Shown here: one piece after another, positions 9,205 through 31,756 of the stretch
How the letters are laid out: the number at the start of each line of letters is the position of its first letter
Position numbering within the stretch: position 1 is the first letter of the stretch
Origin: Liolophura sinensis
Lineage: Eukaryota; Mollusca; Polyplacophora; Chitonida; Chitonidae
NCBI RefSeq assembly: GCF_032854445.1
Contig: NC_088300.1
Location: 806,001 to 870,000, forward strand
Length of the DNA: 64,000 nucleotides
Reading direction: 5' to 3'
Notes under the pieces: model-generated
The model's database searches: none
Seen by the model: the letters and a program-made list of their open reading frames with translations, nothing else
What the model was told of the DNA's origin: nothing
Position numbers and translations under genes: made by a program

Positions 9205-9315
9205 TCATATAGCCTTGACAAGTCCTAATGACATGAGTGAACCAGCCCTAGACCAGCAGCAATGAACACAGCCATCCACGCCCCGGTACGCTCTGCAAAA
9301 TGTGGCGGAATTTTT
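9205..9315 (-). CDS. SLC29A: ENT coding exon 13 (TM11, C-terminus), apparent 1-nt frameshift
   Basis: After acceptor TTTTTCAG. Phase 2 gives [20 protein letters not shown] then GLGLVHSCH and TAG at 9227-9225. The next frame, from about 9250 on, reads [12 protein letters not shown] and stops at 9207-9205, which is the expected ENT ending (human ENT1 has GAVFSFLFRAIV at this position). The plus-strand run AACC near 9240-9243 would need one more C. Either a base is missing from the assembly or the gene ends in a truncated helix. Confidence 0.82.
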   Translation of the reverse strand, partial: KNSATFCRAYRGVDGCVHCCWSRAGSLMSLGLVKAI

Positions 9316-12300
9316 CTGAAAAACAAAACAAGAAAACATTATAACAGATAAAAAAAATAATTGCAGTCCTGCAGAAATATGGCTTAAGCAGCTCTCCATG
9401 TACGTATGTATACGTTTAGTGTTAATGCGCCTAACAATTTTCCATATGACCACGAGGAGTCGTTAAATGTGTGTACATATACTGTGCGAGTCCATGGTGC
9501 CAAAGTGCTGCCGACGCTGAAGTATCATGCCGAAGACACCAGGCATGACACCCCACCCATTCACATTACACTGACACCGGGCCAACCAGTCCCTGTTTCC
9601 TTGCTCTAATCTCTCAGTGTTGAGCGCCAAGCAAGTACCATCTACTTGTGCCATTAAGTCTGTGGTATGACCCGACCCGGGTTTGATTCCCAGGTCTCCC
9701 TACTTTGAGGCAGACGCTCTAATCATTAGGCCACCAAAGCGATCAGCGTAAACACATAGGACAAAGTGTAAACAGCTGCTTTGTTGTTGTTACAGCAGAG
9801 TTTCCTATACAACAATGAAAGTAACAGATATGTTGTGTGTGCAGAGTTCATGTACAACAATAAAAGTGACAGATATGCTGTGTGCAGAGTTCCTGTACAA
9901 CAATGAAAGTGACCAGATATGCTGTGTGTGCAGAGTTCCCTGTGCAACAATGAAAGTGACAGAGATGCTGTGTGTACAGAGTTCCTGTACAACAATAAAA
10001 GTGACAGATATGCTGTGTGTGCAGATTTCCTGTGCAACAATGAAAGTGACAGAGATGCTGTGTGCAGAGTTCCTGTGAACAATGAAAGTGACAGAGATGC
10101 TGTGTGTGCAGAGTTCCTGTACAACAATAAAAGTGACAGATATGCTGTGTGCAGAGTCCTGTGCAACAATGAAAGTGACAGAGATGCTGTGTGTGCAGAG
10201 TTCATATACAACAATGAAAGTGACAGAGATGTTTGTGTGTGCAGAGTTCATATACAACAATGAAAGTGACAGATATGCTGTGTGTGCAGAGTTTCCTATA
10301 CAACAATGAAAGTGACAGATATGCTGTGTGCAGAGTTCCTGTGCAACAATGAAAGTGACAGAGATGCTGTGTGCAGAGTTCATATACAACAATGAAAGTG
10401 ACAGATATGCTGTGTGTGCAGAGTTCCTATACAACAATGAAAATGACAGATATGCTGTGTGCAGAGTTCCTGTACAACAATGAAAGTCACAGAGATGCTG
10501 TGTGTGCAGAGTTCCTGTACAACAATAAAGTGACAGATATGCTGTGTGCAGAGTTCCTGTGCAACAATGAAAGTGACAGATATGCTGTGTGCAGAGTTCC
10601 TGTACAACAATAAAAGTGACAGATATGCTGTGTGTGCAGAGCTTCTGTGCAACAATGAAAGTGACAGAGATGCTGTGTGTGCAGAGTTCCTGTGCAACAA
10701 TGAAAGTGACAGAGATGCTGTGTGCAGAGTTCCTGTACAACAATGAAAGTGACAGATATGCTGTGTGTGCAGAGTTCCTATACAACAATGAAATGACAGA
10801 TATGCTGTGTGCAGAGTTCCTGTACAACAATGAAAGTGGCAGAGATGCTGTGTGTGCAGAGTTCCTGTGCAACAATAAAAGTGACAGATATGCTGTGTGC
10901 AGAGTTCCTGTACAACAATAAAAGTGACAGATATGCTGTGTGTGCAGAGCTTCTGTGCAACAATGAAAGTGACAGAGATGCTGTGTGCAGAGTTCCTGTG
11001 CAACAATGAAAGTGACAGAGATGCTGTGTGTGCAGAGTTCCTGTACAACAATAAAAGTGACAGATATGCTGTGTGCAGAGTTCCTGTGCAACAATGAAAG
11101 TGACAGATATGCTGTGTGTGCAGAGTTCCTGTGCAACAATGAAAGTGGACAGATATGCTGTGTGCAGAGTTCCTGTACAACAATGAAAGTGACAGAGATG
11201 CTGTGTGTGCAGAGTCCCTGTGCAACAATGACAGTGACAGAGATGCTGTGTGTGCAGAGCTCCTGTACAAAATGAAAGTAACAGATATGCTGTGTGTGCA
11301 GAGTTCCTATACAACAATTAAACTGACAGATATGCTATTTGTGCAGAGTTCCTATAAAACAATGAAAGTGACAAATATGTTGCCCAGTGAGGAGAGATAT
11401 GCTGCCCACTAAGGACAGATATGTTGCCCACTGAGGAGAGATATGCTGCCTACTTAAGACAGACATGTTGCCCACTGAGGTGAGATATGCTGCCCACTGA
11501 GGTGAGATATGCTGCCCACTGAGGACAGATATGTTGCCCACTGAGGAGAGATATGCTGCCCACTGAGGGCAGACATGTTGCCCACTGAGAAGAGATATGC
11601 TGCCTACTGAGGAGAGATATGCTGCCCACTGAGGACAGATATGCTGAACACTGAGGACAGATATGCTGCCACTGAGGGCAGATATGTTGCCCACTGAGAA
11701 GAGATATGCTGCCCACTGAGGTCAGATATGCTGCTCACTGAGGGCAGAGGGCAGACATGTTGCCCACTGAGGGCAGACATGTTGCCCACTGAGAGAGATA
11801 TGCTGCCTACTGAGGAGAGATATGCTGCCAACCACAGGGGTTCATAGAAGTCGTCTGACGAGCTGGTATTCAGTCCATCGATTGAATAAAAAAACTCATT
11901 AAGTGGCTATACTTATTCAATTTGAGGTTGTTTTTTGCACGAAATATTCAAAACTCAATTTGAACATATCCAAAGTTCCCCGAAGCAACATGTATACGTT
12001 ACAAATTATCTCCCTTTTATGGAAATTTTCATAACCCTCTGCATTTATTTGATATAAGAAAGCAATTTTTGGAAGTGGAGGGGTGTATGAAATCAAACAT
12101 GATACATAGTAAGCTCCTTTGGTTTCTGCCAAGTTGATCATCACAAATAATTTGACCTACTTCAGTTTCCCGATCATTCTGTTTTTGACATTAGAGTAAA
12201 GCGAGGTGACTGCATGTGAGTGCATGCCATCTGCCTGGGTTTCCTCCCCCTGACGTCAGGTGGCACTAATATCTTCAGCTCCTTTCAAGGCAAGCATGTA

Positions 12301-15300
12301 GTTTGCCTCCAGGTTTCATTTTCAGGAGTCTGAAGTTTGATAAAGGGCGTATAGCAGCAAAATTAAAACCGTCTTTGCCAGAGCTGAACATTAACTAGCG
12401 ATAATGATTCGCTATTAAAGGCTGTTTTTTAATAGATCATTATAGTTAATACTCCATGGGGTAATTCACTAGCATTTGTGGGTCACTTAATTTTCTCATT
12501 TCTGGTGGCTGATTTTCGTGGCAAATTTCATGTGACTATTAGTACTCTATCAACAAGTCAAATCAGACTTCATTTTGAACTGCTTATGTTGACTGAATGC
12601 ATTTGTTGACTGAATCATTCATTTTGGAGAGTGAGGATTTCAGGAGAGCTTCAATAATGCACAGAACATTCATCTGGATGCACTAATCAAATTAGTTTCT
12701 AGTACACCTGAAGGGGATTGCGTGTCATTTTTGAAATGTCCTTTACAGGCTGAGAGTGACAACTACATATTCCATAAGCCATTAATGCATGACCATTCTA
12801 TCTTGATTCATGACTACTGAATATTTTTAATAGTGATGTCAATTGCTCATAATGTAAGTTTCAGTCAGTCTAGTCTGATGCTCTAGGTTGTAATCTTTCT
12901 GGGCAGGCCTTCACACATCACTAGACTGGTACCAAGCAATACATGTAACAATAACTGCATTGCGCATCGATTATCAGTTTGCAGTATCAACTAGGAGGCC
13001 AGCTTGAGTTCATGTATAGGCAGTGATAATTAATTTAAAATTGAGGATAGTAAAGAACAAAGATGTTCAATTTTAGTATCTCAAATGGTCGGTCAAATAA
13101 AAAAACCCCTCAACTTCAGCTGCAAGAAAAACTCAATTTCGCCCAGAAAATGGTGTCAATATATGGAAACAATGACTTCTATGCACACCTGCCACTGAGG
13201 ACAGATATGTTGCCCACTGAGAACAGACACACTGCCCACTAAGGACATACACACTGCTCAGCGAAGACAGACACACAGCTCACTGAGGACAGACACACTG
13301 CTCACTGAGGACAGACACACTGCTCACTGAAGACAGACACACTGCTCAGCGAAGACAGACACACAGACACACTGCTCACTGAGGACAGACACACTGCTCA
13401 CTGAAGACAGACATACTGCTCAATGAGGAGAGAAACATTGCTCACTGAGGACAGACACAGTGCCCACTGAGGACAGAAATGCTGCCCAATGAGGACAGAT
13501 ATGATGCCCACTGAGGACAGATATGCTGCCCACTGTCGACAGACACACTGCCCACAGACACACTGCTCACTGAGGACAGACACACTGCCCACTGAGGACA
13601 GATATGCTGCCCAATGAGGACAGATATGATGCCCACTGAGGACAGATGAAATGTGATAGGATATGTTTCTATACTTGGGTAACACCATGTAGACAAAGTG
13701 ACTTACTGTGGGGCCTGCATCATAGCCAATGTGCTGACATAACCATTGGACAAGGCCAACAGGATGATGAAGAGGACAGGTAAGGCATCGTTAGCAAATA
13801 TCACAGGTAGATGTGTCCTTGGGTGAGCGTTACACAGCATCAGTAACGGGATAAGCGCTGTACGGAGAAGAGTCACGCTGACCACACCAACACTGTTCTC
13901 TTTCCTCATCTGTTGGCAAACAGTCACGTACAGCATGTATTCCTGTCACCACAGGGCCATTAAAAAATATATCGCTAAAATACATTCAAGAGGAATGATC
14001 TTTGGTATGAAGGTCTGAAGATCAATGGTTCAAAAATGATTACAAAGCCAACACAACATATTCTACTGTTCACTGTTTCCTCAGCAATGATGATCTGTGA
14101 CAACACTGGTAATGTAAACTCCTATTACAGTATTAATTGTATTACAAAAGAGCAATGGACCCACCTGGCCATTATTTGGGAAAAGTTATTTTTTTTAAAA
14201 TTACAGTAAATCACCAATAATTTCATGGAATTTTTGAACATGATCTATTAAGCTGGGAAACTTGCACCGGCAACCATCCTACCACTCCAGTCCCAGGCAC
14301 TGAATGGACAAAAACACACCAACTTACCAACTGAACTCATCCAGCAGTCATCCTACCATCAACACTCCACTCCTTGGCATTAAATAGTCAAAAACACACC
14401 AACTTACCAAATGAGCCCATCCAGCCACCATCCTATTACTGCATTCCTCAGCACTGAATAAGCAAAAACACGCCAATTTACCAAATGAACTCATCCAGTA
14501 ACCTTCTAACCCCTCCACTCTCTGGAACAGAATAGTCCAAAACACATGAACTTACCAAATGAACCCATCCAGTAACCTTCCTACCCCTCCACTCTCTGGC
14601 ACTGAATAGTCAAAAACACACCAACTTACCAAATGAGCCCATCCAGCCACCATCCTATTACTGCATTCCTCAGCACTGAATAAGCACAAACACACCAATT
14701 TACAAAATGAACTCATCCAGTAACCTTCTAACCCTTCCACTCTCTGGCACTGAATAGTTCTATAACACACCAACTTACCAAATGAACCCATCTAGTAACC
14801 ATCCTAACCCTCCACCTTCTGGTACTGAAGAGGCAAAAACACACCAACTTACCAAATGAACCCATCCAGCAACCATCCTACCCCTCCACTCTCTGGCACT
14901 GAATAGGCAAAAACACACCAACTTACCAAATGAACCCATCCAGTAACCTTCCTACCCCTCCACTCTCTGGCACTGAATAGTCCAAAACACACGAACTTAC
15001 CAAATGAACCCATCCAGTAACCTTCCTACCCCTCCACTCTCTGGCACTGAATAGTCCAAAACACACCAATTTACCAAATGAACCCATCCAGCAACCATCC
15101 TACCCCTCCACTCTCTGGCAATGAATAGGCAAAAACACACCAACTTACCAACTGAACCCATCCAGTAACCATCCTACCCCTCCACTCTCTGGCACTGAAT
15201 AGGCAACAACACACCAACTTACCAAATGAACCCATCCAGCAACCATCCTACCCCTCCACTCTCTGGCAATGAATAGGCAAAAACACACCAACTTACCAAA

Positions 15301-18300
15301 TGAACCCATCCAGTAACCTTCCTATCCCTCCACTCTCTGGCAATAAATAGTCAAAAACACACCAACTTACCAAATGAGCCCATCCAGTAACCTTCCTACC
15401 CCTCCACTCTCTGGCACTGAATAGGCAAAAACACACCAACTTACCAAATGAGCCCATCCAGCCACCATCCTATTAGTGCATTCCTCAGCATTGAATAAGC
15501 AAAAACACGCCAATTTACCAAATGAACTCATCCAGTAACCTTCTAACCCCTCCACTCTCTGGCAATGAATAGTCCAAAACACACGAACTTACCAAATGAA
15601 CCCATCCAGTAACCTTCCTACCCCTCCACCTTCTGGCACTGAATAAGCAAAAACACACCAATTGACCAAATGAACCCATCCAGTAACCATCCTACCCCTC
15701 CACTCTCTGGCACTGAATAGTCAAAAACACACCAATTTACCAAATGAACTCATCCAGTAACCTTCTAACCCCTTCGCTCTCTGGCACTGAATAGTCCAAA
15801 ACATGCCAACTTACCAACTGAGCCCATCCAGCCACCATCCTATCACTGCATTCCCTGGCAATGAATAGGCAAAAACATGCCAACTTACCAAGCCCATCCA
15901 GCAACCATCCTATCACTGCACTCCCTGGCAATGAATAGGCAAAAACATGCCAACTTACCAAGCCCATCCAGCAACCATCCTATCACTGCACTCCCTGACA
16001 ATGAATAGGCAAAACACATCAACTTACCACCTGAGCCCATCCAGCCACCCTCCTATCACAGCACTCCCTGACAATGAATAGGCAAAACACATCAACTTAC
16101 CAACTGAGCCCATCCAGCAACCATCCTATCACAGCACTCCCTGACAATGAATAGGCAAAAACACACCAACTTACCAAGCCCATCCAGCAACCATCCTATC
16201 ACTGCACTCCCTGACAACGAATGGGCAAAACACGTCAACTTACCAACTGAGCCCATCCATCAACCATCCTATCACAGCACTCCCTGACAATGAATATGCA
16301 AAACACATCAACTTACCAAGTGAGCCCATACAGCCACCCTCCTATCACAGCACTCCCTGACAATGAATAGGCAAAAACACGTCAACTTACCAACTGAACC
16401 CATCCAGCAACCATCCTTCCACTCCAGTCCGCAGCATTAAATAGCACAAAACACACCACAGGAGTGAAGTATTCGTCTGAAACAGACAGCATTTCACCAA
16501 AAATCACTTATGTATCCAAAGAAATATCACTGAAAATGAATTAAGAGCTTGAGCTCTTTATAAAACACTTAAGATAACAAAAAGTTGACAGATACATGAT
16601 TTGACATATCTTATTTCCTTAACTTGGCCAGGATTTCTTACAACAGCATCTTTCATTAAATGTTATTGTAAGATAGGGTGAGAAATTTATGGAATATTTA
16701 AAATATCATATTTAATATTACTAATGACAGCCCATGTCAACCATTTTTTTGTATGTTTATGCTACAACGGGTGTTGAGTAATGCATCTTAGCTGACCATA
16801 AGACAAAGTAAACTATGAAACCTGGTTTTATACAAATATATACATACATATCCAATACCAGCCAAGCCAATGAGCCACTTAAGCTGTCCTTTGCAAGCCT
16901 ACAACCTGGCCTCATTTTATTTCCCTTGAAATAATGAGGGGCTTAATGCTAGTCACAGCTGATTTTCTGGCATTCAAAGAAATTTTATAAAGTGCCACTC
17001 AAAACGATGCCTTAAGTATGCAAGTGAAATCAATTTTTGTTATAAACCATCAGGTTTTTGTGCAATTTACTTCTTATTTTAAATAGAGCTTGATTAGTAC
17101 AGGCAACCAACAGTTTGGGTGCAGAAACGTTTCCTGGAACTGAAATGGCTCAACGCACATTAATGGGCCCCGGATGACAAAACTGTCTTAGACTTATTCC
17201 AAATGACCTAAAACTTCGCCCATAAACGTGCATTTTTAGAGATCAATAAATGTCACAAAATATTATTTTTGGTGCTGAAAATTTTCCAGTAGAATGTCAT
17301 CATATGTTCCAAGCAAACCTCAGAACTCTTTCCTAAAACCAACAGAACTCTCAGAATCAGGAAGAGTGGCAAGTCAGTCATGGATGAAATTTATGGTCCT
17401 TTAGGGTTTGATGTAAGTCTAAGACAGCTTCCCGAAGCTGGAGCCTGGCCAGCTGAAAAGTATTGGTCAACCACACAGTATTAGTCAACAGAAGCATGAA
17501 CCAACCAGTCCAGCTCATGCTAGCTTCCTCTCCGGCTGTACGCAGGAAGGTCTTCCAGCAACCTGAGGATGGTCGTGGGTTTCCCCCAGCCTATGCTCGG
17601 TTTTCTCCCACCATAATGCTGGCCTCCATCGTATAAGTGAAATATTCTTGAGTATGGTGTAACACACCAATAAAATAAATAAATGAACCAACCCATGGAT
17701 AAACATACTAGTAAGAGGACTATTGCCATATTTCTGCTCTGACTCTATGGCGGAGCAGATACCCGGGAATACGGCCAGGGTAACTGTAAATACCCAAAAC
17801 ACTGCAAACGCTTGTGGCCAAACCTGAGGAAACAAACAGAATACATTAAAAAAAGAGACACCAACTAATGTAACAGCTCTAAACGTCCATGGACATATTT
17901 TCTGACATGCTTGTATACTTATGACGTCATGGTATGGGCCATGTTAGAGGGCACTGTGTCATGTCACTTGTACCCCATGCACACGAGGCCACAGTATGGA
18001 TCATGTTAGAGTAACCAGAGGCACGATGTCACCTCACTTCTACCCCATGCAGACATGAGGCCACTGTATGGGCCATGTTCGAGTAACTGGAGGCATGATG
18101 TCACCTCACTTGTACCCCATGCAGACACAAGGCCACGGTATGGGCCATGTTAGAGTAACCGGAGGCACAATGTCAAGTCACTTGTACCCCATGCAGACAT
18201 GAGGCCACGGTATGGGTCGTGTTAGAGTAACTGGAGGCACGATGTCACCTCACTTGTACCCCATGCAGGCAGGAGGCCACGGTATGGGCCATGTTAGAGT

Positions 18301-21300
18301 AAATGGAGGCACGATGTCAATTCACTTGTACCCCATGTAGACATGAGGCCATGGTATGGGCCGTGTTAGAGTAACTGGAGGCACGATGTCATGTCACTTG
18401 TACCCCATGTAGACATGAGGCCACTGTAAGGGCCGTGTTCGAGTAACCGGAGGCACGATGTCACCTCACTCGTACCCCATGCAGACACAAGGCCACGGTA
18501 TGGGCCATGTTAGAGTAACCGGAGGCACGATGTCACCTCACTTGTACCCCATGCAGACACAAGGCCAAGGTATGGGCCATGTTAGAGTAAATGGAGGCAC
18601 AATGTCAATTCACTTGTACCCCATGTAGACATGAGGCCACTGTATGGGCCATGTTAGAGTAACTGGAGGCACAACGTCAATTCACTTGTACCCCATGCAG
18701 GCAGGAGGCCACGGTATGGGTCGTGTTAGAGTAACTGGAGGCACGATGTCAAGTCACTTGTACCCCATGCAAACATGAGGCCACGGTATGGGTCGTGTTC
18801 GAGTAACCGGAGGCATGATGTCAAGTCACTTGTACCCCATGCAAACATGAGGCCACGGTATGGGCCATGTTAGAGTAAATGGAGGCACGATGTCACCTCA
18901 CTTGTACCCCATGCAGGCAGGCGGCCACGGTATGGGTCGTGTTAGAGTAACTGAAGGCACGATGTCATGTCACTTGTACCCCATGCAGACATGAGGCCAC
19001 GGTATTGGTCGTGTTAGAGTAACTGGAGGCACGATGTCAAGTCACTTGTACCCCATGCAGACATGAGGCCACGGTATGGGCCATGTTAGAGTAAATTGAG
19101 GCACGATGTCAATTCACTTGTACCCCATGCAGACATGAGGCCACGGTATAGGCCGTGTTAGAGTAAATGGAGGCACAATGTCAATTCACTTGTACCCCAT
19201 GTAGACATGAGGCCACGGTATGGGTCGTGTTAGAGTAACTGAAGGCACGATGTCATGTCACTTGTACCCCATGCAGACATGAGGCCACGGTATGGGTCGT
19301 GTTAGAGTAACTGAAGGCACGATGTCATGTCACTTGTACCCCATGCAGACATGAGGCCATGGTATGGGTCGTGTTAGAGTAACTGGAGGCACGATGTCAA
19401 GTCACTTGTACCCCATGCAGACATGAGGCCACTGTATGGGCCATGTTCGAGTAACTGGAGGCACGATGTCAATTCACTTGTACCCCATGTAGACATGAGG
19501 CCACGGTATGGGTCGTGTTCGAGTAACCGGAGGCATGATGTCAAGTCACTTGTACCCCATGCAAACATGAGGCCACGGTATGGGCCATGTTAGAGTAAAT
19601 GGAGGCACGATGTCAATTCACTTGTACCCCATGCAGACATGAGGCCACGGTATAGGCCGTGTTAGAGTAAATGGAGGCACGATGTCAATTCACTTGTACC
19701 CCATGCAGACATGAGGCCACTGTATGGGCCATGTTCGAGTAACTGGAGGCACGATGTCTATTCACTTGTACCCCATGTAGACATGAGGCCACGGTATGGG
19801 TCGTGTTCGAGTAACCGGAGGCATGATGTCAAGTCACTTGTACCCCATGCAAACATGAGGCCACGGTATGGGCCATGTTAGAGTAAATGGAGGCACGATG
19901 TCAATTCACTTGTACCCCATGCAGACATGAGGCCACGGTATAGGCCGTGTTAGAGTAAATGGAGGCACGATGTCAATTCACTTGTACCCCATGCAGACAT
20001 GAGGCCACGGTATGGGCCGTGTTAGAGTAACTGAAGGCACGATGTCATGTCACTTGTGCCCCATGCAGACATAAGGCCATGGTATGGGCTGTGTTAGAGT
20101 AACCGGAGGCACGATGTCATGTCACTTGTACCCCATGCAGACATAAGGCCACGGTATGGGCTGTGTTAGAGTAACCGGAGGCACAATGTCAAGTCACTTG
20201 TATCCCATGCAGACATGAGGCCACGGTACGGGCCATGTTAAGATAAGCTGAAACAGTATGTCAAGTCACTGGCACCCTGTGCACATATGATTAAGACGCC
20301 AAACAGAGTTCAGCTGATGTAAGCGGTGCTTTCAACGATCTAAATGTGAAGCATTTTCCTTACTTTGAACTGCGATACCTCGGTTGTGCAACATCACAAA
20401 AGGTTTTTTAATGCACTTTTTAAACCTTCTATGCACATACATTGGACTAGTGTTGTCTTACGGGTAATCCCACCACTGCAGAAACAATGTGCAGGGGACA
20501 TGGGCGACATACAAGATAAACTGATTGTTGTTTAATGTCATACTTGATGAGTTTTCACTTACATGATTCAACAGTTGGGAGAAACTGCATTGGGAAAGTT
20601 AGTGACAAACTCTCATGTCAGATGAACAAACGCCATTCCTTTTATATTAGTTAGTATATTTCGGGTCAATTGTCTGCATCAGGTGTACAACTGACTGCCT
20701 TATTTTGCAAAGAGAACTTACCTTTTTAAGAATAATTTTGAGTGCTGTGCTATTGTTGTCAGCAGCATGGTCATCTACATTAGATATGTAGTCTGTCTCC
20801 TCAGACTCCACCTCATCAGAGTCCACCAACACTGCGTAGTTTATGGACTGTGCTAAGGAACCTGAATGTACATGATACATTGTAGGTGAGTTCATGATAA
20901 CCCTGGACTAAAACAACAGTTAACAGCAAAAACAAAACACTCTTGATAATATGTAAATCAGTATTTTGACCTATTTCAAGATCACAAATAAGGCATAAAC
21001 CTTTCAATATAACATGTCATTTCCCCTGGCAACCTTAATGTAGTGTTGGCGTGAAGTCATCCATATTGTAACAAAATGTGGTAAAGTAGGCTTTCATGGA
21101 TATATTCAATTCAATTGGTTCTTAACGCCAAACTAAAGAATATTTCACTTATATGAGGGTGGCCAGCATTAAAGTGGGAGGAAACCAGGCAGAGCCTGGG
21201 GGAAACCCATGACGATCCGCAAGTTGCGTACGTCTATGAGCTGGACATGAACTCACAGTGAGGGCATTGGTGGGAGGCTCTTGGGTCATTGCGCCCCGCT

Positions 21301-24300
21301 GGCGTGCCAACCCCTTCTGCCACTAAGGTTCCTTTTATGGATGCAAACAGCTAAAACATGACAAGAAATAAAACCAAGCAATCAAGAAGTGGATGAAATT
21401 ACTAATCAAGTGCAGGATTACGCTCTGCCGGTCAGTGTGGCTTGACTGTTCTTAACCACAGGGAAACCGCTGGCTTAACTCACATCAAATGTACTTAATT
21501 TATCCCTGGCATTATTGCTTTTATTTAGATTTCGTGTCATGACAGTGTACGATGGACAGCGTCGATATAAGATATGGATATAGATTTGTGTGAGTGATTT
21601 GTTATTATTTGAGGAAGGATGAAAATACAATGCACTTGGAGCAAAAAAGTATGTCTGATCTGAATTAACTACAGTACCCCACCCCTGTGGCTAATAGCAA
21701 AAGTACAGATTCATGCCAAAGTGATGCGCATGTAAGAAATGGACATAGAACATGCTGTTAGTCATGAGAAAATACAATAATCTGAAGAGATAAGCCTTAC
21801 AAAAGCTGTATGGTGTCAAGCAAACACTTAGCATGAAAATTTTTCCTTTAATGTAGCTATCATTGTAATGCAATGGTAAGGTTTCAAAATCATTACACTT
21901 GGAATAGCCCTGTCAGTGGAAAACAGAAACATGCTGAGTGGAAATATTAGCATAGCATACATCTTCTAAACACTAAATGGATGAGACTGTTTTTTTCTAA
22001 TGTGTACTAAGATTTTCTTTGCTTCACAATCCTGGTTCAAGTAAAATCAACATTCATTCAGACTGCTCAGTTCAACATACACTGCCCTCATTACTTCCTG
22101 TGTGCTTCATCATTTTACCTGAGTAACACACCTAATACACATATAAATCATGGTCATGAAAGAAAAGGTTTTTCATGGAGCAATTAAGTTTAAATACTTA
22201 TCTTTATGGAAAGATCAATTGATACTATAGTTCAGTGGTGTACCTATTTAAAACATAATGCTTTCTGACATATGTTAGTGAAAAATCAAGCCCTTTATCC
22301 CACAGCGAAGGTCACTCAATGCCTTGTAAACCTTTTAGCAAAATTAAAGTACTTTGATATTAACTGCACATGAAGCTATTATAAGATAACAGTCAGCCAC
22401 ACATTCCAAATTCAGAAACCAAGCCAGATAGAAGCAAACAAAAAACATTAATCAAATACACAGACACTAGCTAAGGTGAGTCACGTAGGTGTTCAGCCGG
22501 CTAATCTAGTGTTGGCTAGATTATCTACCAGAGCACCACAGAGCACAAAAACACAAAAATATGCAAGAAATAGAATATGTACCTGTTGATGTCTTACCCA
22601 TGTAGAACTGGGAGAATTGCTGACAAAATATAAATGTCATTGTTTACCTGAAACTTTGCACAGTGTACTGTTTACCATATTGCTCTTTTATGGACAAACA
22701 ATGAAATTACATTATAATGTTTGATAATTATCACACAAGTCATGTAAGTTTTCACACTGGGTCTGTCTTAACAAGACAGCAAGGAAAATTGCACAAATTT
22801 TTCATACCAGAATTATAGACTGATAGAGGGGCTTCACACAACACAAGACTATGAATCAACTGACGCTTATTTATTTTAAGGACTTATCTTAAGGACCCTA
22901 GGTGGCAGAACCTGTGGTAGATGATAATCCTGTTACTCACCAAGAAATACAAGGAGGCAAAACCAAAGACTGAGAGGATGACCACAATCACAGCTGAAAG
23001 GAAGAAACCAAAGGCACTGGAGCTGACACTACTTCCTACCCCGAGTGACAGGACATTGACCAATGCTGCAAAGGTACCGCCCATAGCCTTCAAACAAATA
23101 TTAGCATATATCACTGTACATGTCAATTAGTGAAACAATCAATCCAGTGGCAACGAGGTCAGAGAATGTTCATGATATACTCTATGCTAGAACCTTAGTT
23201 ATGCGGCTTTACAGTTTATTTCCAGCATCCATCCTTTTATAAGTCTGTTTTCTGGATCAACAATACTTAATGAGCAGCAGTCATTTTCTGAAAGTATCCT
23301 ACTAAATACATTTCCAACAGTTTAAATACCTGTGACCATAGAACTAACAATTTAACACAACTATGACCACATAGATAACTGATCACTCATAGCTACTGAT
23401 CACTCAAATGTCCAGCCCAAACAATGCCCCCTCCCCCCACATCACAGATGTAGCACCTACACAGTACACCTACCTGACCACTCATAGCTGTCTGAGTGTA
23501 CCTGCCTGGGAACTGCCCAGACAGCCCAAACAATGCCCCACACATCACAGATGTAGCACCAACAATGTAACACCTACCTGACCACTCATAGCTGCCTGAG
23601 TGTACATGGCTGGGAACTGCCCAGACAATGCCCTCCCCCTACATCACAGATGTACCACCTACACAGTACACCTACCTGACCACTCATAGCACCCTGAGTG
23701 TACATGGCTGGGAACTGCCCAGACAGCCCAAACAATGCCCCCCCCCCCCCCCCACCACATCACAGATGTACCACCTACACTGTACACCTACCTGACCACT
23801 CATAGCTGCTTGAGTGTACATGGCTGGGAACTGCCCAGACAGCCCAAACAATGCCCCACACATCACAGATGTAGCACCTACACTGTATACATACCTGACC
23901 ACTCATAGCTACCTGAGTGTAACTGGCTGGGAACTGCCAAGACAGCCCAAACAATGCCCCACACAACACAGATGTAGCACCTACACAGTACACCTACCTG
24001 ACCACTCATAGCTGCCTGAGTGTAACTGGCAGGGAACTGTCCAGACAGCCCAAACAATGCCCCCCCCCCCCCACATCACAGATGTAGCACCTACAATGTA
24101 CACCTACCTGACCACTCATAGCACCCTGAGTGTAACTGCCTGGGAACTGCCCAGGTAGCCCAAACAATGCCCCTCATATCACAGATGTAGCACCTACACA
24201 GTACACCTACCTGATCATTCATAGCTGCCTGGGTGTAACTGGCAGGGAACTGTCCAGACAGCCCAAACAATGCCCCACACAACACAGATGTAGCACCTAC

Positions 24301-27300
24301 ACTGTACACCTACCTGACCACTCATAGCTGTCTGAGTGTAACTGCCTGGGAACTGCCAAGACAGCCCAACAAATGCCCCACACAACACAGATGTAGCACC
24401 TACACAGTACACCTACCTGACCATTCATAGCTGTCTGAGTGTACCTGGCTGGGAACTGCCCAGACACCCCGAACAATGCCCCACACAACACAGATGTAGC
24501 ACCTACACTGTACACCTACCTGACCACTCATAGCTGCCTGAGTGTAACTGGCTGGGAACTGCCCAGACAGCCCAAACAATGTCCCCCCCACTCCCCCACA
24601 TCACAGATGTACCAACTACACAGTACACCTACCTGACCACTCATAGCTGCCTGAGTGTAACTGCCTGGGAACTGCCCAGATAGCCCAAACAATGCCCCAC
24701 ACATCACAGATGTAGCACCTACAATGTACACCTACCTGACCACTCATAGCTGTCTCAGTGTACCTGGCTGGGAACTGCCCAGACACCCCGAACAATACCC
24801 CACACATCACAGATGTAGCAACTACACAGTACACCTACCTGACCACTCATAGCTGCCTGAGTGTAACTGGCAGGGAACTGCCCAGACAGCCCAAACAATG
24901 CCCCACACAACACAGGTGTAGCACCTACACTGTACACCTACCTGACCACTCATAGCTGTCTCAGTGTAACTGCCTGGGAACTGCCCAGACAGCCCAAACA
25001 ATGCCCCTCACATCACAGATGTAGCAACTACACTGTACACCTACCTGATCACTCATAGCTGCCTGAGTGTAACTGCCTGGGAACTGCCCAGACAGCCCAA
25101 ACAATGCCCTTCACATCACAGATGTAGCACCTACACTGTACACCTACCTGACCACTCATAGCTGCCTGAGTGTAACTGGCAGGGAACTGCCCAGACAGCC
25201 CAAACAATGCCCCACACATCACAGATGTAGCACCTATAACAAAGTTCTGCCATGAGTCAACAGCCACACATACTATATATATCTACGCGTAAAAGTGGTA
25301 AGAGGACTTTCTGTCTGAATGCAACAACCACACATACCATATATATCTAGACATACAAGTGGTAAGAGGACTTTCTGCTTGAATGCAACAACCACAGATA
25401 CTATATATATATCTAGACATACAAGTGGTAAGAGGACTTTCGGCTTGAATGCAACAACCACACATCATTATTCTTATGTGATGTGAATTTAGCTTTTCTT
25501 TTTCAACTAGACCTAAATCATATAAACTTAAAATCATGCACAAATATCTTACATACATCCAACATTTGAATGAATGTTCTCCACTAAAAAACTCTCCAAA
25601 ACCAGTGGAAGTTGAATTTGAATGATAAACTTCATTAAACGCTAGATCAACAGTTAGATTGTAATAGTTCATAACTCACAAAAAGAGTAGCTTGGCTCAT
25701 GCCAACACTAGTTTTCTGGATAGATGGAATAAAAACTACCCACACTGAAAGCAAATTGACACAATTCCTTCCTAGCCAGAGTACTTTATAACAGTCAATT
25801 CACTTATTCATACTCCTCCATTAGATTACTCACCACTTGTTATGGCAACTGTTACAAGAGTTAAAATGAAGAAATCTGTCTGCCCTGTAAAAACAAACAG
25901 GAACCTTATGATAAATGGTCAAAGCTGAGAGAGAACACATTGTACCTACCAGTAATACTATATTTACATTTGACGTAATTCTGTTCAACACAATATTAAT
26001 TAAGGATTGACTGTAGTTTTTTTTTAAGGTTTATTGGGTGTAAAACCACTGTGCAAACTCTTGTATGCACCGCGTAAGTATTGACTGTAATATTTTTTGG
26101 GGTTTATTGGGGTATAAACCAAAAAAAAAAATACCTTGCAAACTTTTGTATGACAGTGCAGTACTGACTGTAATATTTTTTAGGTTTACTGGGGTATAAA
26201 AACTACTGTGCAAACTTTTGTATGCACCACATAAATATTGACTGTAATATTTGTTAGGTTTATTGGGGTACAAATGAAATAACCGCTGTGCAAACTTTTG
26301 TATGCACCACATATGTATTGACTGTAATATTTGTTAGGTTTATTGGGGCATAAATGAAATAACCGATGTGCAACCTTTTGTATGACCCGCTTAAAAAAGA
26401 GGCTGATGAGAGAAACTTTACATCTGTGGATCGTTTCAAAAAGAATCACGAATAACTTGACACTTAGGCTGTGAAATCATTTTTCTTATTTTGAGACCAG
26501 TTTCCTAGGTGACAAGACGTTTGCGCTGTGAGTAACGGACTGCTGTTGTTGCACACTGAGGATATGTGGGAGTGTGTACACAGTTGACTTCACAATGCCG
26601 CTTGCAAAACGCGTGTAATTGTGACATATGTCTCACTATCTAAATCTTACTGATTTCCAAGAACAACAGTGTGCATTTTAGACATCCATTAGAAAGTTTA
26701 TTTATTATTTTATTTATTTGATTGGTGTTTTACACCATACTCAAGAATATTATGGTGGGTGGAAACCGGGCAGAGCCTGGGGAAACCCACAACCATCCGC
26801 AGGTTGCTGGCAGACCTTCCCATGTACGACCGGAGAGGAAGACAGCATGAGCTGGACTTAAACTCACAGGGACCGCATTGGTGAGAGACTCTTTGGTCAT
26901 TACGTTGAGCTAGTGTGCTAACCAACTGAGCCACGGAGGCCCCCAGTTGGAGTTTATTGGGGTATAAACATAAAACTGCTGTGCTTGTTTTGGTTATGTC
27001 ACTCGCACTCGCACAAGACTGTCTGTGTCTGTGCCACTGTGTGGTCATTACTGAGGTAGGTATGGCTGTTTAACAGTCTTAATTTCTCGTAGACTATCCA
27101 AAGAATTTGCAAGGTTAATGAATGTGAAGATAATTCAGAAGAAAGTAAATACATTTAGTGTTATGTTTGTCATTTTACATGGTGTGTCTTCAGTCTCTTT
27201 TAGTTCTGTTCTTGGAAAAAGTAGTCCTATGTGGGCGTGGCTTCGTTTTTTCAGTTTATTAGAGTATAAATGCAAAGATTTGACCAATCAGATTGCGCCT

Positions 27301-29647
27301 TACAAACGTAATCTCAGGAAAATTAAATTATTGGTTTGTAAAACAATCTTCCAAAGAAAATTAAAAGCATGTGAATTAATCAATTGATTTTAGTGAAAAG
27401 CACAAACCATATGAAACAGATGAGTATAACAAACAATTGCCACTGTGTGAACGGCACTTTATCATTTACAGATGCAATGCAACATGTTTAAAGTAGAAGG
27501 TAACCTTTCTTTGACACCCAGGAGAAATGAATTAAATATTAACATTTACATAAATCTATGCCATTTTAATGTAACTCACACTCATCTGTGTTGACAAAAA
27601 CCATTCCATCTGTGAGACAGAACATTGTCATCATTACCATCAGTGACCCCACCATCCTCACCTTCAGCGGGATTCTGCAAGACAAATAACATCAACACAC
27701 AGTGATTAGTATCCAGGTAATATGATCATACCTCATCAAAAACAGGTAATCCATGAAGCATAAGAACATAACATTGATGTGGGTTTGCAGAGCGGGAACG
27801 CAAGACATCAAGGATATTTTTGGTCTTTAGAAACCCATAGATCATAGAAATGTATCGATCAACATCTGGTATCATTTTGGTCAGGTCTGGACTAAGTTTC
27901 ACTGTCAATATTTAAGTTTGATTGCATTTTTAAATATATATTCAAATGATCAGCCCACAGTTACAGAAACTTATGTCCAGGTAATTTGTTTTAATTTCTG
28001 TGAACTGAAGGCCATGTTTTTACTCTGCAAAAGCACGCACCCCATAAAATCCTAGTGATGAATAAATCTTATATGTAAATCAAAACACAGGTAACAGATC
28101 TCCTTGGCCTAGACTGTAAGATATTTACTATTTTGGCATTACACACTGTCAACATTTAACATTTCACACACAAACACCACATGCATGTCAACATTTAACA
28201 TTTCACAAACGAACACCACATACATGCCAACGTTGAACAATTAACACATGATCACCACATGCATGTCAATGTTTAACATTTCACACATGAACACCACATG
28301 CATGTCAACACTGGATATTTCACACATGAACACCACATGCATGTCAACATTTAATATTTCACACATGAACACCACATGCATGTCAACATTTCACATTTCA
28401 CACACAAACACCACATGCATGTCAACATTTAACATTTCACAAACAAACACCACATACATGCCAACGTTGAACAATTAACACATGATCACCACATGCATGT
28501 CAATGTTTAACATTTCACACATGAACACCACATGCATGTCAACATTTAACATTTCACACATGAACACCACATGCATGTCAACATTTAACATTTCACACAT
28601 GAACACCACATGCTTGTCAAGGTTGAACCTTTCACACACGAACACCACAAGCATGTCAATCTTGAACTTTTCCCACATGAACACCACATGTTTGTCAATG
28701 TTGAACATTTCACACTATCACCACATGTTTGTCAACGTTGAACATTTCACACACGAACACCACATGCATGTCATTGTTGAACCTTTCACACACGAACACC
28801 ACATGCATGTCATTGTTGAACCTTTCACACATGAACACCACATGCTTGTCAACATTGAACATTTCACATGATCACCACATGCATGTCAATGTTGAACTTT
28901 TCACACATGAACACCACATGCTTGTCAATGTTGAACATTTCACACATGAACACCACATGCATGTCAATGTTGAACTTTTCCCACATGAACACCACATGCT
29001 TGTCAATGTTGAACATTTCACACTATCACCACATGTTTGTCAATGTTGAACATTTCACACACGATCACCACGTGCATGTCAATGTTGAACTTTTCACACA
29101 TGAACACCACATGCATTTCAACACTGAACATTTCACACCACATGCATGTCAACATTGAACATTTCACACATGAACACCACATGCATGTCAACATTGGATA
29201 TTTCACACATGGACATCACATGCTTGTCAACGTTGAACATTTGACACCACATGCCTGTCCACGATGACCATTTCACACCAGATGCATGTCAACATCGAAC
29301 ATTTCACACATGAACACCAAATGCTTGCCAACCTTGAACAATTAACACATGATCACCACATGCATGTCAATGTTTAACATTTCACACATGAACACCAGGG
29401 GCCTCCGTGGCTCAGTCGGTTAAAGCGCTAGCGCAGCGTAATGACCCAGGAGTCTCTCACCAATGCGGTCGCTGTGAGTTCAAGTCCAGCTCATGCTGGC
29501 TTCCTCTCCGGCCGTACGTGAGAAGGTCTGTCAGCAACCTGCGGATGGTCGTGGGTTTCCTCCGGGCTCTGCCCGGTTTCCACCCACCATAATGCTGGCC
29601 GCCGTCGTATGAGTGAAATATTCTTGAGTACGGCGTAAAACACCAAT

Positions 29648-29687
<40 letters not shown>

Positions 29688-31756
29688 GAACACCACATGC
29701 ATGTCTACATGGATATTTCACACATGGACATCACATGCTTGTCAACGTTGAACCTTTCACACATGAACACCACATGTTTGTCAACATTGAACATTTCACA
29801 TGATCACCACATGCATGTCAATGTTGAACTTTTCACACATGAACACCACATGCTTGTCAATGTTGAACATTTCACACACGAACACCACATGCTTGTCAAT
29901 GTTGAACATTTCACACACGAACACCACATGCATGTTACTGTTTAACCTTTCACACATGAACACCACATGCTTGTCAACATTGAACATTTCACACATGATC
30001 ACCACATGCGTGTCAACACTGAACATTTCACACCACATGCATGTCAACATTGAACATTTCACACATGAACACCAAATGCATGCCAACCTTGAATATTTCA
30101 CACATGGACATCACATGCTTGTCAACGTTGAACATTTCACACCACATGCTTGTCAACGATGAACATTTCACACCACATGCTTGTCAACATTGAACATTTC
30201 ACATCACATGCATGCCAACGTTGAACATTTCACACCACATGCATGTCAACGTTGAACATTTCACACCACATGCATGGACACCATATGCGTGATATGTACA
30301 GTGTAAAATTATAGTTGGATATGTTACATAAAGTACAGAAATATAAAACGAGTGGCTAATTAAAGCATCAGCAGTGTGGTGAGTTTAATGATTATTTACA
30401 TGTGACATTTGATAGTGTCCTACTTACAGGTTTACAAGCATGGCATTCAGCAAGATGAAGATTAAGTTGGGGACGGTGCTGGCAATGGCAATGTAAGCCT
30501 CGAAGGATGCCTGTAGATCTGTGCTGACTTCCTCGTCATGGTGGATGTAGTCTACAGGCAAGCTGGTGTTCCTTAACTTGAACTGAAAATACTAACAGAA
30601 CACACAACATCCTCGTCAGCACAAAAGGATTAATGATAATATTACCCGAAATGAAACTCAAAAATTAAATCTGACTCTTCACGTAAGATGTACACATTTA
30701 TTTGGTGTGAAATATGAAAAAAAATGTTAACTGCATATAACGTACGAGAAAAATATTAAGCTTGTATCAGAAAGATAATTATTTAACAAAGCAATTTTTG
30801 TACACAAAAACATGTTATGTTTAGCTATAGCTCTGACAAAAAGGATAGACTGAATTTTACAAACTGGAAATATGGAATTACTTGACAAAGCAAGCCGTGG
30901 ATTTCCACTACTCACCAGCATACATCACATTGCAGAAGTAGGAAATAATGTGATTAAAGCTACACATGTATGTGTCTTCAGGACCTACAAATTCCCCTAA
31001 AAACTCTTATTTTAGTTTTTCTTTGGCACCCACATGACAAACACATGAATTCAAAGAGAAGCCAACAGTGCAGGAAAATACTGATCCTTTGCGCAGACAT
31101 TTTTTACTGAAGGGTTAAATACCTTTAATACACAACACCAACGACTTACTTGTTTAGCAGTTATGAAAAAATTCCATGGCAATAGTGATCCCACGCCCAG
31201 AAGGTAGAAGATTAAATACACTGTATGGCACCTGTAAGAGAAAGGTAGACCTGGCAACATTCACAGACCTAATTCATGGTTGTGAACTCTTAACCTTTTA
31301 ACTTAATAGCCTGACCAATATGTAAATTAATTTTATCTTTCAATGTGCAGAATGTCAAAGCTGTTCGATTTGGAAGAAACGAGATAATCTGAAAGCACAA
31401 TCTACACCGCCTACTTCATGACAAAAATGGAACGGCCCGAACCTTGATGATTTTCCAATCTGACTACGCTTTGTTTACAACTTTCCGGTTTTGATGTTCA
31501 GGTTTCTGGAGGTATGTTAGAAAATTGCTAAATCTATTGAAAATAGTTGTCAACTGAATTCAAAGAGAAGTCAACACTCTGTTAAAACAAGTTTTGGCTT
31601 GAAATAAAGAGTTCCTGTGTTTGCTGTTTTCCATAACTGCTTGCATGACTCTATGAGTGAATAAAGAGGACAGTAACTCCAGCAATAGCTTTATTACCTG
31701 TCAGGTGGAATATAACGCACACGTGCTAACAAAGAGTCCTTCCTCTCATCCTCCAT
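9205..31756 (-). CDS. SLC29A: Equilibrative nucleoside transporter (ENT1/2-like), 13 coding exons
   Basis: Coding exons in transcript order: 31756-31698, 31231-31150, 30591-30428, 27674-27580, 25884-25834, 25233-25148, 23087-22941, 22619-22598, 20861-20722, 17823-17709, 16476-16391, 13942-13707, 9315-9225. All junctions are GT-AG and phases agree, giving 457 residues, the usual ENT size (human ENT1 has 456). Family hallmarks: TM1 LLPWNFF, TM4 [16 protein letters not shown]8 FNAADWSGR, and the C-terminal helix. A sequon (NTS) lies in the TM1-TM2 loop; the TM6-TM7 loop is acidic. It is an 11-TM plasma-membrane or organelle facilitator of nucleosides. The residue after LLPWNFF is Ile, as in ENT2, where ENT1 has Met33. 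The last exon looks frameshifted by one base near its end. Two exons (6 and 11) are embedded in tandem arrays of themselves. It diverges from WDR43. Confidence 0.95.
9425..9738 (-). mobile_element. SINE family 2, tRNA-derived, antisense in the ENT last intron
   Basis: On the minus strand a tRNA-like head (GGCCTAATGATTAGAGCGTC, then the B-box-like GGGAATCAAACCCGGGTC) is followed by GGTACTTGCTTGGCGCTCAA and ATGATACTTCAGCGTCGGCA. A diverged second copy is at 35550. Confidence 0.72.
9800..11370. repeat. 43/45-bp tandem repeat, about 36 copies, ENT last intron
   Basis: The unit contains GTGACAGATATGCTGTGTG and CAGAGTTCCTGTACAACAA. A TG dinucleotide is present or absent, giving 43- and 45-bp variants. 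Long frames of 300-440 codons are open on the minus strand across it and are not genes. Confidence 0.93.
11380..11834. repeat. 22-bp tandem repeat, left block
   Basis: The unit contains GATATGCTGCCCACTGAGGA. The same unit resumes at 13191; the two blocks flank a mobile element. Confidence 0.92.
11835..13191. mobile_element. Candidate non-autonomous DNA transposon (about 1.36 kb) inside the 22-bp array
   Basis: The left end CAGGGGTTCATAGAAGTC and the reverse complement of the right end CAGGTGTGCATAGAAGTC match at 16 of 18 positions. The element interrupts one 22-bp array, and both flanks continue with the array word CTGCC, which could be part of a target-site duplication. No long ORF lies inside. 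The first 200 bp resembles sequence at 62905-63120. CAGGG termini are typical of hAT elements, but an 8-bp duplication is not evident, so the superfamily is open. Confidence 0.65.
13191..13648. repeat. 22-bp tandem repeat, right block
   Basis: The same family as the block at 11380, with units containing CTGCTCACTGAGGACAGACA. It ends 58 nt from the donor of ENT exon 12 (13706). Confidence 0.92.
13707..13942 (-). CDS. SLC29A: ENT coding exon 12 (TM9-TM10)
   Basis: 236 nt, phase 0 to 2, after acceptor GGTGACAG, donor GTAAGT. Encodes [19 protein letters not shown], then [16 protein letters not shown] and [17 protein letters not shown], matching the ENT R..LIPLLLLCN and FSNGYLASL stretches. Confidence 0.95.
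14255..16476 (-). repeat. SLC29A: 73-bp exon-containing tandem array, about 29 copies of the 3' part of ENT exon 11 with its donor
   Basis: Each unit is the last 65 or so nt of exon 11 plus about 8 nt of intron (GTAAGTTG), spaced mostly 73-74 bp; a few are 69-70 bp where a short word is lost. About 24 of the units keep the GTAAGT donor; the rest read GTAAAT or similar. The copies at both array edges match the true exon best, with ACTGGAGTGG kept at about 14300 and 16430. Open frames with [12 protein letters not shown] in this region are translations of the array. Confidence 0.92.
16391..16476 (-). CDS. SLC29A: ENT coding exon 11 (TM8), seed of a tandem array
   Basis: 86 nt, phase 1 to 0, after acceptor CTGTCTGTTTCAG, donor GTAAGT. 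Encodes [20 protein letters not shown] and MVAGWVQL, with the FNxxDxxGR hallmark. This upstream-most copy is the only one with the 5' part of the exon and a true acceptor. Confidence 0.92.
16477..17204. other. ENT intron 10, unique part
   Basis: Unique AT-rich intron sequence; nothing recognised besides the flanking repeats. Confidence 0.4.
17205..17410. repeat. Dispersed repeat, copy A
   Basis: Clearly similar in the same orientation to 53325-53545, with shared words CATTTTTAGAG, AATATTATTT and GTCATGGA. The family is unknown and no coding capacity is visible. Confidence 0.65.
17505..17690 (+). mobile_element. SINE family 1, 3' part, next to ENT exon 10
   Basis: Shares CAGCTCATGCTAGCTTCCTC and the GTGAAATATTCTTGAGTATG tail with the full copy and ends in AATAAATAAATG. 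It is antisense to the transporter and about 20 nt from its exon 10 donor. Confidence 0.8.
17709..17823 (-). CDS. SLC29A: ENT coding exon 10 (TM7)
   Basis: 115 nt, phase 0 to 1, after acceptor TTTCCTCAG. Encodes [20 protein letters not shown] and [15 protein letters not shown]. Its donor (GTATGT) is about 20 nt from a SINE remnant. Confidence 0.93.
17900..20262. repeat. 72-bp tandem repeat, about 33 copies, ENT intron 9
   Basis: The unit contains GGTATGGGTCGTGTTAGAGT and CACTTGTACCCCATGCAGAC. It fills most of the intron between exons 9 and 10. I found no exon-like word in the unit. Confidence 0.94.
20263..20721. other. ENT intron 9, unique part
   Basis: The intron stretch between the 72-bp array and the exon 9 donor. 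No feature recognised. Confidence 0.4.
20722..20861 (-). CDS. SLC29A: ENT coding exon 9 (large cytoplasmic loop)
   Basis: 140 nt, phase 1 to 0, after acceptor TACATTCAG, donor GTAAGT. Encodes the acidic loop ([13 protein letters not shown]) and ends ALKIILKK, just before TM7. Confidence 0.9.
21115..21330 (-). mobile_element. SINE family 1, antisense copy in ENT intron 8
   Basis: In reverse complement it carries GTGAAATATTC and the CAGCTCATAG/CCTGGTTTCCTCCCAC words plus a decayed tRNA-like head. It lacks a clear A tail. Confidence 0.7.
21331..22597. other. ENT intron 8, unique part
   Basis: AT-rich unique sequence with no recognised exon or repeat. Confidence 0.4.
22598..22619 (-). CDS. SLC29A: ENT coding exon 8, 22-nt microexon
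   Basis: Between acceptor TATATTTTGTCAG and donor GTAAGA. It encodes QFSQFYM plus one base of a Gly codon. Without it exon 7 (phase 0) cannot join exon 9 (phase 1), since phase 0 in exon 9 hits TAG at once. The residues align with the conserved LPRLEFY stretch that follows TM6 in human ENT1. Confidence 0.8.
22941..23087 (-). CDS. SLC29A: ENT coding exon 7 (TM5-TM6)
   Basis: 147 nt, phase 0 to 0, after acceptor TTTGTTTGAAG, donor GTGAGT. Encodes [18 protein letters not shown] through [10 protein letters not shown] to LYFL. MSGQ-AMGG across the junction matches ENTs. Confidence 0.94.
23405..25233 (-). repeat. SLC29A: 103-bp exon-containing tandem array, about 17 copies of ENT exon 6
   Basis: Each unit is the 86-nt exon plus a 17-nt spacer that itself begins GT and ends AG (GTAGGTGTACAGTGTAG). 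I count 17 donor-like sites between about 23469 and 25148, mostly 103 bp apart. Most copies keep the exon frame open, with scattered substitutions: LSG/LSW, FPASY/FPARY/FPGSY/FPAMY, AAMSGQ/TAMNGQ. Several copies have C-tract expansions (near 23738, 24060, 24585). 103 is not a multiple of three, so read-through shifts frame. Confidence 0.93.
25148..25233 (-). CDS. SLC29A: ENT coding exon 6 (TM4-TM5 junction), first of about 17 tandem copies
   Basis: 86 nt, phase 1 to 0. It encodes [14 protein letters not shown] then [14 protein letters not shown], the ENT TM4 signature. This copy is the most upstream in the transcript and has a unique acceptor context (ACTTTGTTATAG), while the downstream copies are preceded by GTGTACAGTGTAG from the repeat spacer. 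It is followed by donor GTAGGT. I take it as the ancestral exon, but any downstream copy without a stop could be used instead. Confidence 0.85.
25262..25470. repeat. 64-bp tandem repeat, 3 copies, ENT intron 5
   Basis: The unit contains GTGGTAAGAGGACTTTCTGC and ATATATATCTA. It abuts the acceptor of ENT exon 6, ending about 30 nt upstream of it in transcript terms. Confidence 0.88.
25834..25884 (-). CDS. SLC29A: ENT coding exon 5 (start of TM4)
   Basis: 51 nt, phase 1 to 1, after acceptor TTTTTACAG, donor GTGAGT. Encodes [16 protein letters not shown]. Too short to be found as an ORF; supported by phase and family alignment. Confidence 0.9.
26010..26990. repeat. About 84-bp tandem repeat, 5 or more copies, split by a SINE
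   Basis: The unit contains GTTTATTGGGGTATAAA and GTGCAAACTTTTGTATG. A further partial unit (TTTATTGGGGTATAAAC) lies at about 26950, on the far side of the SINE at 26705. Confidence 0.82.
26705..26943 (-). mobile_element. SINE family 1, near full length, antisense
   Basis: In reverse complement it begins GGGGCCTCCGTGGCTCAG, has the GTGAGTTTAAGTCCAGCTCA B-box region and ends with the TTCTTGAGTATGGTG tail and a TAAA-rich tract. Confidence 0.85.
27000..27579. other. ENT intron 4, unique part
   Basis: Unique AT-rich sequence; an 89-codon plus-strand frame here has no recognisable similarity and is probably chance. Confidence 0.35.
27580..27674 (-). CDS. SLC29A: ENT coding exon 4 (TM3)
   Basis: 95 nt, phase 2 to 1, after acceptor TTGCAG. 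Encodes [15 protein letters not shown] and TM3, ending NTDE plus one base. Joining to exon 5 makes the family WQ motif (DEWQTDFF), which fixes the donor at GTGAGT. Confidence 0.92.
27675..28139. other. ENT intron 3, unique part
   Basis: No feature recognised between the exon 4 acceptor and the 39-bp array. Confidence 0.35.
28140..30290. repeat. 39-bp tandem repeat, roughly 45 copies, interrupted by a SINE, ENT intron 3
   Basis: The unit contains GAACACCACATGCATGTCAA and CATTTCACACATG; variants of about 25-30 bp lack CATGAACAC. The array ends 138 nt from the exon 3 donor. 39 is a multiple of three, so several frames stay open ([13 protein letters not shown]) without coding meaning. Confidence 0.94.
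29398..29684 (+). mobile_element. SINE family 1, full-length tRNA-derived copy with poly-A tail and target-site duplication
   Basis: The head has a polymerase III A box (TGGCTCAGTCGG) and B box (GAGTTCAAGTCC). The body has CGTATGAGTGAAATATTC and GTACGGCGTAAAACACCA, then about 35 A. CATGAACACCA flanks it on both sides (29387-29397 and 29685-29695). It sits inside the 39-bp array, so part of that match may come from the array itself. This is the reference copy for the other fragments in the window and looks young. Confidence 0.92.
30428..30591 (-). CDS. SLC29A: ENT coding exon 3 (extracellular loop 1 and TM2)
   Basis: 164 nt, phase 0 to 2. I chose the acceptor TTCTGTTAG, giving YFQFKLRN, over the TTTTCAG 9 nt inside the exon, because AKQYFQ matches the family. 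It carries an N-glycosylation sequon (NTS) and TM2 ([15 protein letters not shown]). Confidence 0.92.
31150..31231 (-). CDS. SLC29A: ENT coding exon 2 (TM1)
   Basis: 82 nt, phase 2 to 0, after acceptor CTCTTACAG. Encodes TM1 with [23 protein letters not shown] is the most conserved ENT signature. Confidence 0.95.
31698..31756 (-). CDS. SLC29A: ENT coding exon 1 (N-terminus)
   Basis: Starts with the ATG at 31756 and encodes [19 protein letters not shown] plus two bases of an Arg codon, then donor GTAATA. An acceptor-like TTCTGTTTTAG lies 4 nt upstream of the ATG, so at least one upstream noncoding exon is expected. The acidic start and PPDR before TM1 fit the family (human ENT1 has PQDRY). 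Confidence 0.88.

Follow-up and report, generated by a model that had tools for sequence, protein, structure and literature searches.

Minisatellites that overlap coding exons are a known kind of repeat, and docking/selector pairing in the flanking introns characterizes one class of mutually exclusive exons. Human tandem exon substitution events, in the available part of PMC9741552, are mostly ancient and keep important residues. Novel intron positions arise, according to the accessible text of PMC2891723, by tandem duplication of coding sequence containing a proto-splice site, and the excerpted report on OGDH exons 4a and 4b states that their mutual exclusivity is enforced by distant branch points (PMC7969005). 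Here we analysed exon 6 of an SLC29/ENT (equilibrative nucleoside transporter) gene of the chiton Liolophura sinensis, which is repeated in tandem within a stretch of 64,000 nt (NC_088300.1 of GCF_032854445.1, positions 806,001-870,000 of the forward strand). This stretch is referred to as the window, and all coordinates are relative to it. The assembly comprises 609.5 Mb in 632 scaffolds (available text of PMC11068029), and a correction to the assembly paper renames the species Liolophura sinensis (PMC12441733).

We consider it very likely that the duplication of exon 6 included its donor but no working acceptor, that splicing did not see the duplicates, and that these grew into a minisatellite. 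With coding-exon minisatellites the array shares the tandem arrangement, diverged copies and broken units that occur several times; it differs in that the chiton unit is a whole exon with its donor, and therefore the array lies, by the annotated model, in an intron and not in the reading frame. Like the tandem exon substitutions in the available part of PMC9741552, whose hosts are enriched in ion-transport genes, the locus has adjacent homologous exons of which a transcript needs one, whereas the chiton copies are frequently broken, have poor acceptors and agree with neutral drift. In the cases outlined in the accessible text of PMC2891723 a new intron appears inside coding sequence, whereas in the chiton whole extra exons have been added repeatedly to an existing intron. 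OGDH exons 4a and 4b, as excerpted from PMC7969005, are alike in that the geometry of the intron between the exons sets exclusivity; they, however, are a working pair with real branch points, and in the chiton the spacers are 17 nt long and have no pyrimidine tract. Among the titles and abstract openings matched by our search, no exon array with such short spacers was described, which is weak evidence of absence.

The exon 6 array and its host gene

On the minus strand, division of the sequence into units yielded 17 complete copies followed by an 18th that is truncated. From one acceptor to the next the distance is exactly 103 bp in 13 of the 17 steps (the remaining four are 113, 110, 116 and 99 bp), and 16 of the 17 spacers are 17 nt long and run from GT to AG, the spacer between copies 16 and 17 being 18 nt long and ending in TTG. 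Tandem Repeats Finder detected the array independently (rows 23433-25236 and 23750-25236). All 17 complete copies have a GT donor, 16 have an AG ahead of the exon (copy 17 has lost it), and 13 keep the length of 86 nt. An open frame at this length was found in 10 copies (1, 4, 5, 6, 8, 9, 10, 13, 14 and 17), and 9 of the 17 combine it with both splice dinucleotides. In copies 2, 3 and 11, which are 86 nt long, the same internal TGA is the sole defect. Four further copies, 7, 12, 15 and 16, have lengths of 96, 93, 99 and 81 nt and all shift the frame in the same way; copies 7, 12 and 15 are altered within or next to a single G run, while copy 16 combines a change at the G run with a deletion and a TAG. 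The earlier note on this DNA had described about 17 complete copies, each with splice sites. Its array, strand, coordinates, exon length and spacer length proved right; about half of the copies, however, are broken, and copy 17 is without its AG.

Similarity among the 86-nt copies averages about 92%, and many copies carry private substitutions. The head-to-tail order, the diverged copies and the signs of turnover, seen in the stop shared by copies 2, 3 and 11, are those of a minisatellite. No gradient was found along the exon 6 array, as divergence between copies did not rise with distance. In addition, we searched the DNA of the genome (609,464,459 bases in 632 contigs; simple repeats skipped, best candidates scored) with the array, and the one match was the array itself.

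The host gene was first modelled by eye and phase as 12 coding exons, which together form an uninterrupted minus-strand reading frame. The closest listed database protein, P0001 of NCBI, an "equilibrative nucleoside transporter 3-like" protein of L. sinensis, revealed an additional small exon (22583-22619) and a different acceptor for exon 8, and the resulting 13-exon model translates to P0001 with zero differences. The source sequence of P0001 may be a slightly different assembly version. Given the length and phases of exon 6 (Table 1), the reading frame needs exactly one copy. A 126-aa piece of the transporter with one wrong residue served as the query for domain and structure searches; it matched Pfam PF01733 with 52.7 bits (cut-off 29.8) and, among solved structures, a single entry, equilibrative nucleoside transporter 1 (6ob6, 4.6e-21). 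The gene thus has both the nucleoside transporter domain and the ENT1 homology of the SLC29 family. In a divergent paralogue of the transporter (9-kb stretch L022), the equivalent of exon 6 is present once, behind an ordinary-looking acceptor.

A separate observation concerns the other end of the gene. The last transporter exon (9225-9315, minus strand) ends in GLGLVHSCH, and one frame over, 12 residues resemble the usual ENT C-terminus, which was compared with that of P0004, ending GSLISLLLVKML; the discrepancy may be an assembly slip, an allele or real.

Splice signals and the copy in use

To score the acceptors, a matrix was built from 11 acceptors of the transporter, and each annotated site was scored with itself left out. 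The 12 annotated acceptors scored from -3.1 to 16.5, with copy 1 at 3.2, whereas those of copies 2-18 ranged from -18.9 to -10.1; all 17 fell below all 12 annotated sites. Between positions -20 and -5 the pyrimidine fraction is 0.50-0.88 in the annotated acceptors versus 0.38-0.44 in copies 2-18, which lack a pyrimidine tract because what stands ahead of each is no more than the copy before it and the first 17 nt of the intron. The donors of the duplicates, on the other hand, are no weaker than that of copy 1: copy 1 and 15 others score 3.4 and copy 13 scores 9.7, against 0.8-9.5 for the other exons. Judged by sequence score, then, the duplicates possess fine donors but not the usable acceptor that each exon of a cassette would need.

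P0001 carries a 29-residue exon 6 peptide that, among the thirteen 86-nt copies, is encoded solely by copy 1. The name of the protein bears no isoform tag, and the protein is the sole member of its 90% identity cluster; since an exon 6 isoform would be expected in the same cluster, this suggests that no such isoform is annotated. Among 44 candidate shorter protein fragments of 61-192 aa, none matched at an E value of 0.001. The earlier note had held that a cassette would be contradicted if transcripts always used copy 1, and the annotated protein does use this copy.

Selection on the copies and the explanations weighed

For the count of substitutions we used the thirteen 86-nt copies, leaving out copies 7, 12, 15 and 16 for their changed length and copy 18 for its truncation, and the neutral expectation weighted transitions twice. 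The distinct changes from the consensus comprised 20 replacements, 1 stop and 7 silent changes, where 19.7, 0.8 and 7.5 are expected without selection. The ratio of nonsynonymous to synonymous change (dN/dS, omega) was 1.10 (95% interval 0.45-3.05) for the 13 copies, 0.97 (0.36-3.04) for the 10 open copies and 1.03 (0.38-3.22) when copy 1 was removed. The dN/dS comparison proposed in the earlier note thus gave a neutral ratio, in company with stops and frameshifts. The protein-level selection expected of cassette exons was not found: omega is near 1 with wide intervals, and 7 of the 17 complete copies are broken. As far as sequence comparison can tell, strong constraint on the copies is excluded.

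The replacements were also compared with the 119 other listed homologues of the 360 found; among the 120 matches listed, no protein of another chiton was recognised by name. Nine of the 20 amino-acid replacements were never seen in the family as represented by these homologues, and G178D, present in copies 2 and 10, replaces a glycine that occurs in 119 of 119. Copy 1 shows 0 amino-acid differences from the array consensus, and the other twelve 86-nt copies show 1 to 6.

From these data we infer the following course of events. A segment of 103 bp, made up of exon 6 together with its 5' splice site and some 17 nt of intron, would have been duplicated in tandem and then expanded as a minisatellite. 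Such a unit carries the donor but not the pyrimidine tract, nor presumably the branch point, of the intron ahead of exon 6, so that a usable 3' splice site would remain to copy 1 alone, which lies at the array's 5' edge. With hardly more than an AG for an acceptor, the duplicates could not be recognised as exons. The spliceosome would link exon 5 to copy 1, and the latter to exon 7, and copies 2-18 would leave with the intron. Free of coding constraint, the duplicates would drift and gather stops and frameshifts, and array turnover appears to have spread broken copies, as the same stop occurs in three places. Acceptor-less duplications may have survived through this silence. On the evidence of sequence and annotation, copies 2-18 are most likely decaying, unused pseudo-exons that the cell skips, and the array is probably an accident of a repeat-rich genome and not a switch for transporter variants. 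An exon caught in a minisatellite was one option raised in the earlier note, and the stops, the frameshifts, the neutral ratio and the annotated use of copy 1 speak for it.

Several observations weigh against this interpretation. First, weak constraint on the copies is compatible with the wide omega intervals. Second, S170R and S170M, together found in four copies, occur in 47 and 5 of 118 listed homologues, respectively; the FPARY variant singled out in the earlier note is S170R. Third, the acceptor matrix rests on 11 sites, the site of exon 11 scores as low as -3.1, and the T content alone overlaps between annotated acceptors (0.31-0.81) and copies (0.25-0.38). Fourth, the use of copy 1 is a matter of annotation, not of a transcript, and the NCBI model may rest partly on prediction. 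Fifth, in simulated transcripts the splicing of a single copy yields a 451-aa protein for 10 of the 17 copies, and the nine copies with an open frame and both dinucleotides count on the same side. Finally, a test for docking-type pairing found antisense matches of at most 9 nt between the unit and the upstream intron, a length reached by 19 of 300 mononucleotide shuffles; with the downstream intron the maximum is 6 nt, reached by 295 of 300.

These observations bear mainly on a mutually exclusive cassette, in which one copy would be chosen per transcript to give variants of the transporter in transmembrane helix 4 (TM4) and the frame would punish double inclusion. Homologous tandem exons whose length is not a multiple of 3, of which the model needs one, are what such a cassette predicts, and it could draw on the nine intact copies and on those variant residues that occur in the family. 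However, the replacement/silent ratio fits neutrality, stops and frameshifts are present, an invariant glycine is changed, the acceptors are without a pyrimidine tract, and the single annotated protein uses copy 1. We therefore regard a cassette as very unlikely, and a cassette maintained by selection was rejected on the replacement/silent count and the broken copies. Nor does the form proposed in the earlier note, with exclusivity enforced by spacer length, agree with the geometry: because copies k and k+2 are 120 nt apart, the spacer does not block their joint use. Double use would be punished mainly by the frame, because 86 is not a multiple of 3. In our simulation, 112 of 120 double-inclusion pairs k/k+2 gave fewer than 440 aa; the other 8 still gave at least 440 aa, which by frame arithmetic are pairs of an 86-nt copy with a length-changed copy.

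We find it just as improbable that the array has a regulatory, non-coding role, whereby arrayed donors or the accidental inclusion of broken copies would lower the yield of productive mRNA with a strength set by copy number. One good acceptor is indeed followed by 17 donors, of which 16 score the same, and all 16 simulated transcripts running from acceptor k to donor k+1 stop early, at 156-232 aa; against this, the exon copies show no sign of constraint, and tandem arrays are common in this genome. A hypermutable reservoir of exons, from which rare splicing to the open copies with AG and GT would produce ENT variants in TM4 (for example S170R and S170M) and unequal exchange would move variants to the used edge, appears slightly less probable still; if it existed, a minisatellite would feed protein diversity. 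That the copy number or some copies are assembly artefacts is the least credible explanation of all, for although HiFi coverage is just 14X (available text of PMC11068029) and the 86-nt copies are so alike, many of them carry private substitutions, the mean read of 8,347 bp given there exceeds the 1.8 kb of the array, and the array has a single match in its own genome.

Other arrays in the window

The silent-minisatellite interpretation of exon 6 can be set beside further arrays in the window (Table 1).

Table 1. Features of the host gene and of the exon-related arrays (window coordinates)
Feature	Position	Strand	Remarks
SLC29/ENT3-like equilibrative nucleoside transporter (host gene)	9225..31756	-	13 coding exons, identical to NCBI protein P0001
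Transporter exon 5	25834..25884	-	neighbour upstream of the array
Exon 6 copy 1	25148..25233	-	86 nt, phase 1 to 0, residues 151-179 (TM4 region); peptide in annotated protein
Exon 6 copies 2-17	23474..25130	-	complete but partly broken duplicates; 17-nt spacers, one of 18
Exon 6 copy 18	23395..23456	-	truncated, with stop; end as set by the splitting script
Transporter exon 7	22941..23087	-	neighbour downstream of the array
Transporter exon 10 array	14365..16426	-	74-bp unit, about 28 copies, related to 3' end and donor of exon 10 (16391-16476)
WDHD1 exon array	60592..61037	-	90-bp unit, 5 copies; annotated protein has first copy only
WDHD1 partial-exon array	61927..62471	-	copies of first part of exon 61767-61982; copy joined to exon body annotated

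WDHD1, which lies only in part within the window, contains a second array of a full exon, whose similar layout and use of the first copy count in favour of the silent-minisatellite interpretation. Spacers of 14 nt follow copies 1-4, with GT...AG in three of the four, and the L. sinensis WDHD1 protein (P0121) includes the peptide once, in the first-copy form with the start PRLN. The acceptors of copies 2-5 have pyrimidine fractions of 0.44 or 0.56 versus 0.69 for the first, a smaller contrast than in the transporter. The short spacers of both full-exon arrays may be a survivor effect, because a duplicate that took more of the intron ahead of it would function as an exon, and a pair of 86-nt exons would break the frame. 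For the partial repeats of transporter exon 10 and of a WDHD1 exon, the annotated copy is the one continuous with the body of the exon.

A fifth array, at 52808-53155, consists of five copies of a 70-bp unit with exon-like sequence (VVVVDSSDDEGE) of a WD40 gene on the plus strand; this gene is perhaps WDR43. Apart from the arrays, a dispersed look-alike sequence, GGAAACC[GA]GGCAGAGCCTGGGG, occurs in two stretches (26700-26945 and 21150-21330), and is possibly a mollusc short interspersed nuclear element.

Arrays with a period of at least 10 and a length of at least 100 were measured in the window and in 15 samples of 10 kb each, placed at round coordinates (150 kb). In the window, 25 merged arrays cover 32.5% of the sequence versus 10.4% of the sampled 150 kb, about three times as much, and single 10-kb stretches range from 0 (3 of 15) to 33.7%. 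Arrays overlap 4 of 22 exons, for which the ends of the WDHD1 exons were rough and transporter exon 8 was set 4 bases too long; 630 circular shifts gave a mean of 7.97, and 75 of them gave 4 or fewer. The idea that arrays are specially drawn to exons in the window was rejected, as 4 of 22 is no excess over the shifts.

Two genes in this 64-kb window, the transporter and WDHD1, thus bear full-exon arrays of the acceptor-less form. This suggests a rule for the survival of exon duplications, namely that a copy with a donor but without an acceptor is silent and can multiply. It also serves as a warning for annotation, and for counts of "tandem exons", in repeat-rich genomes.

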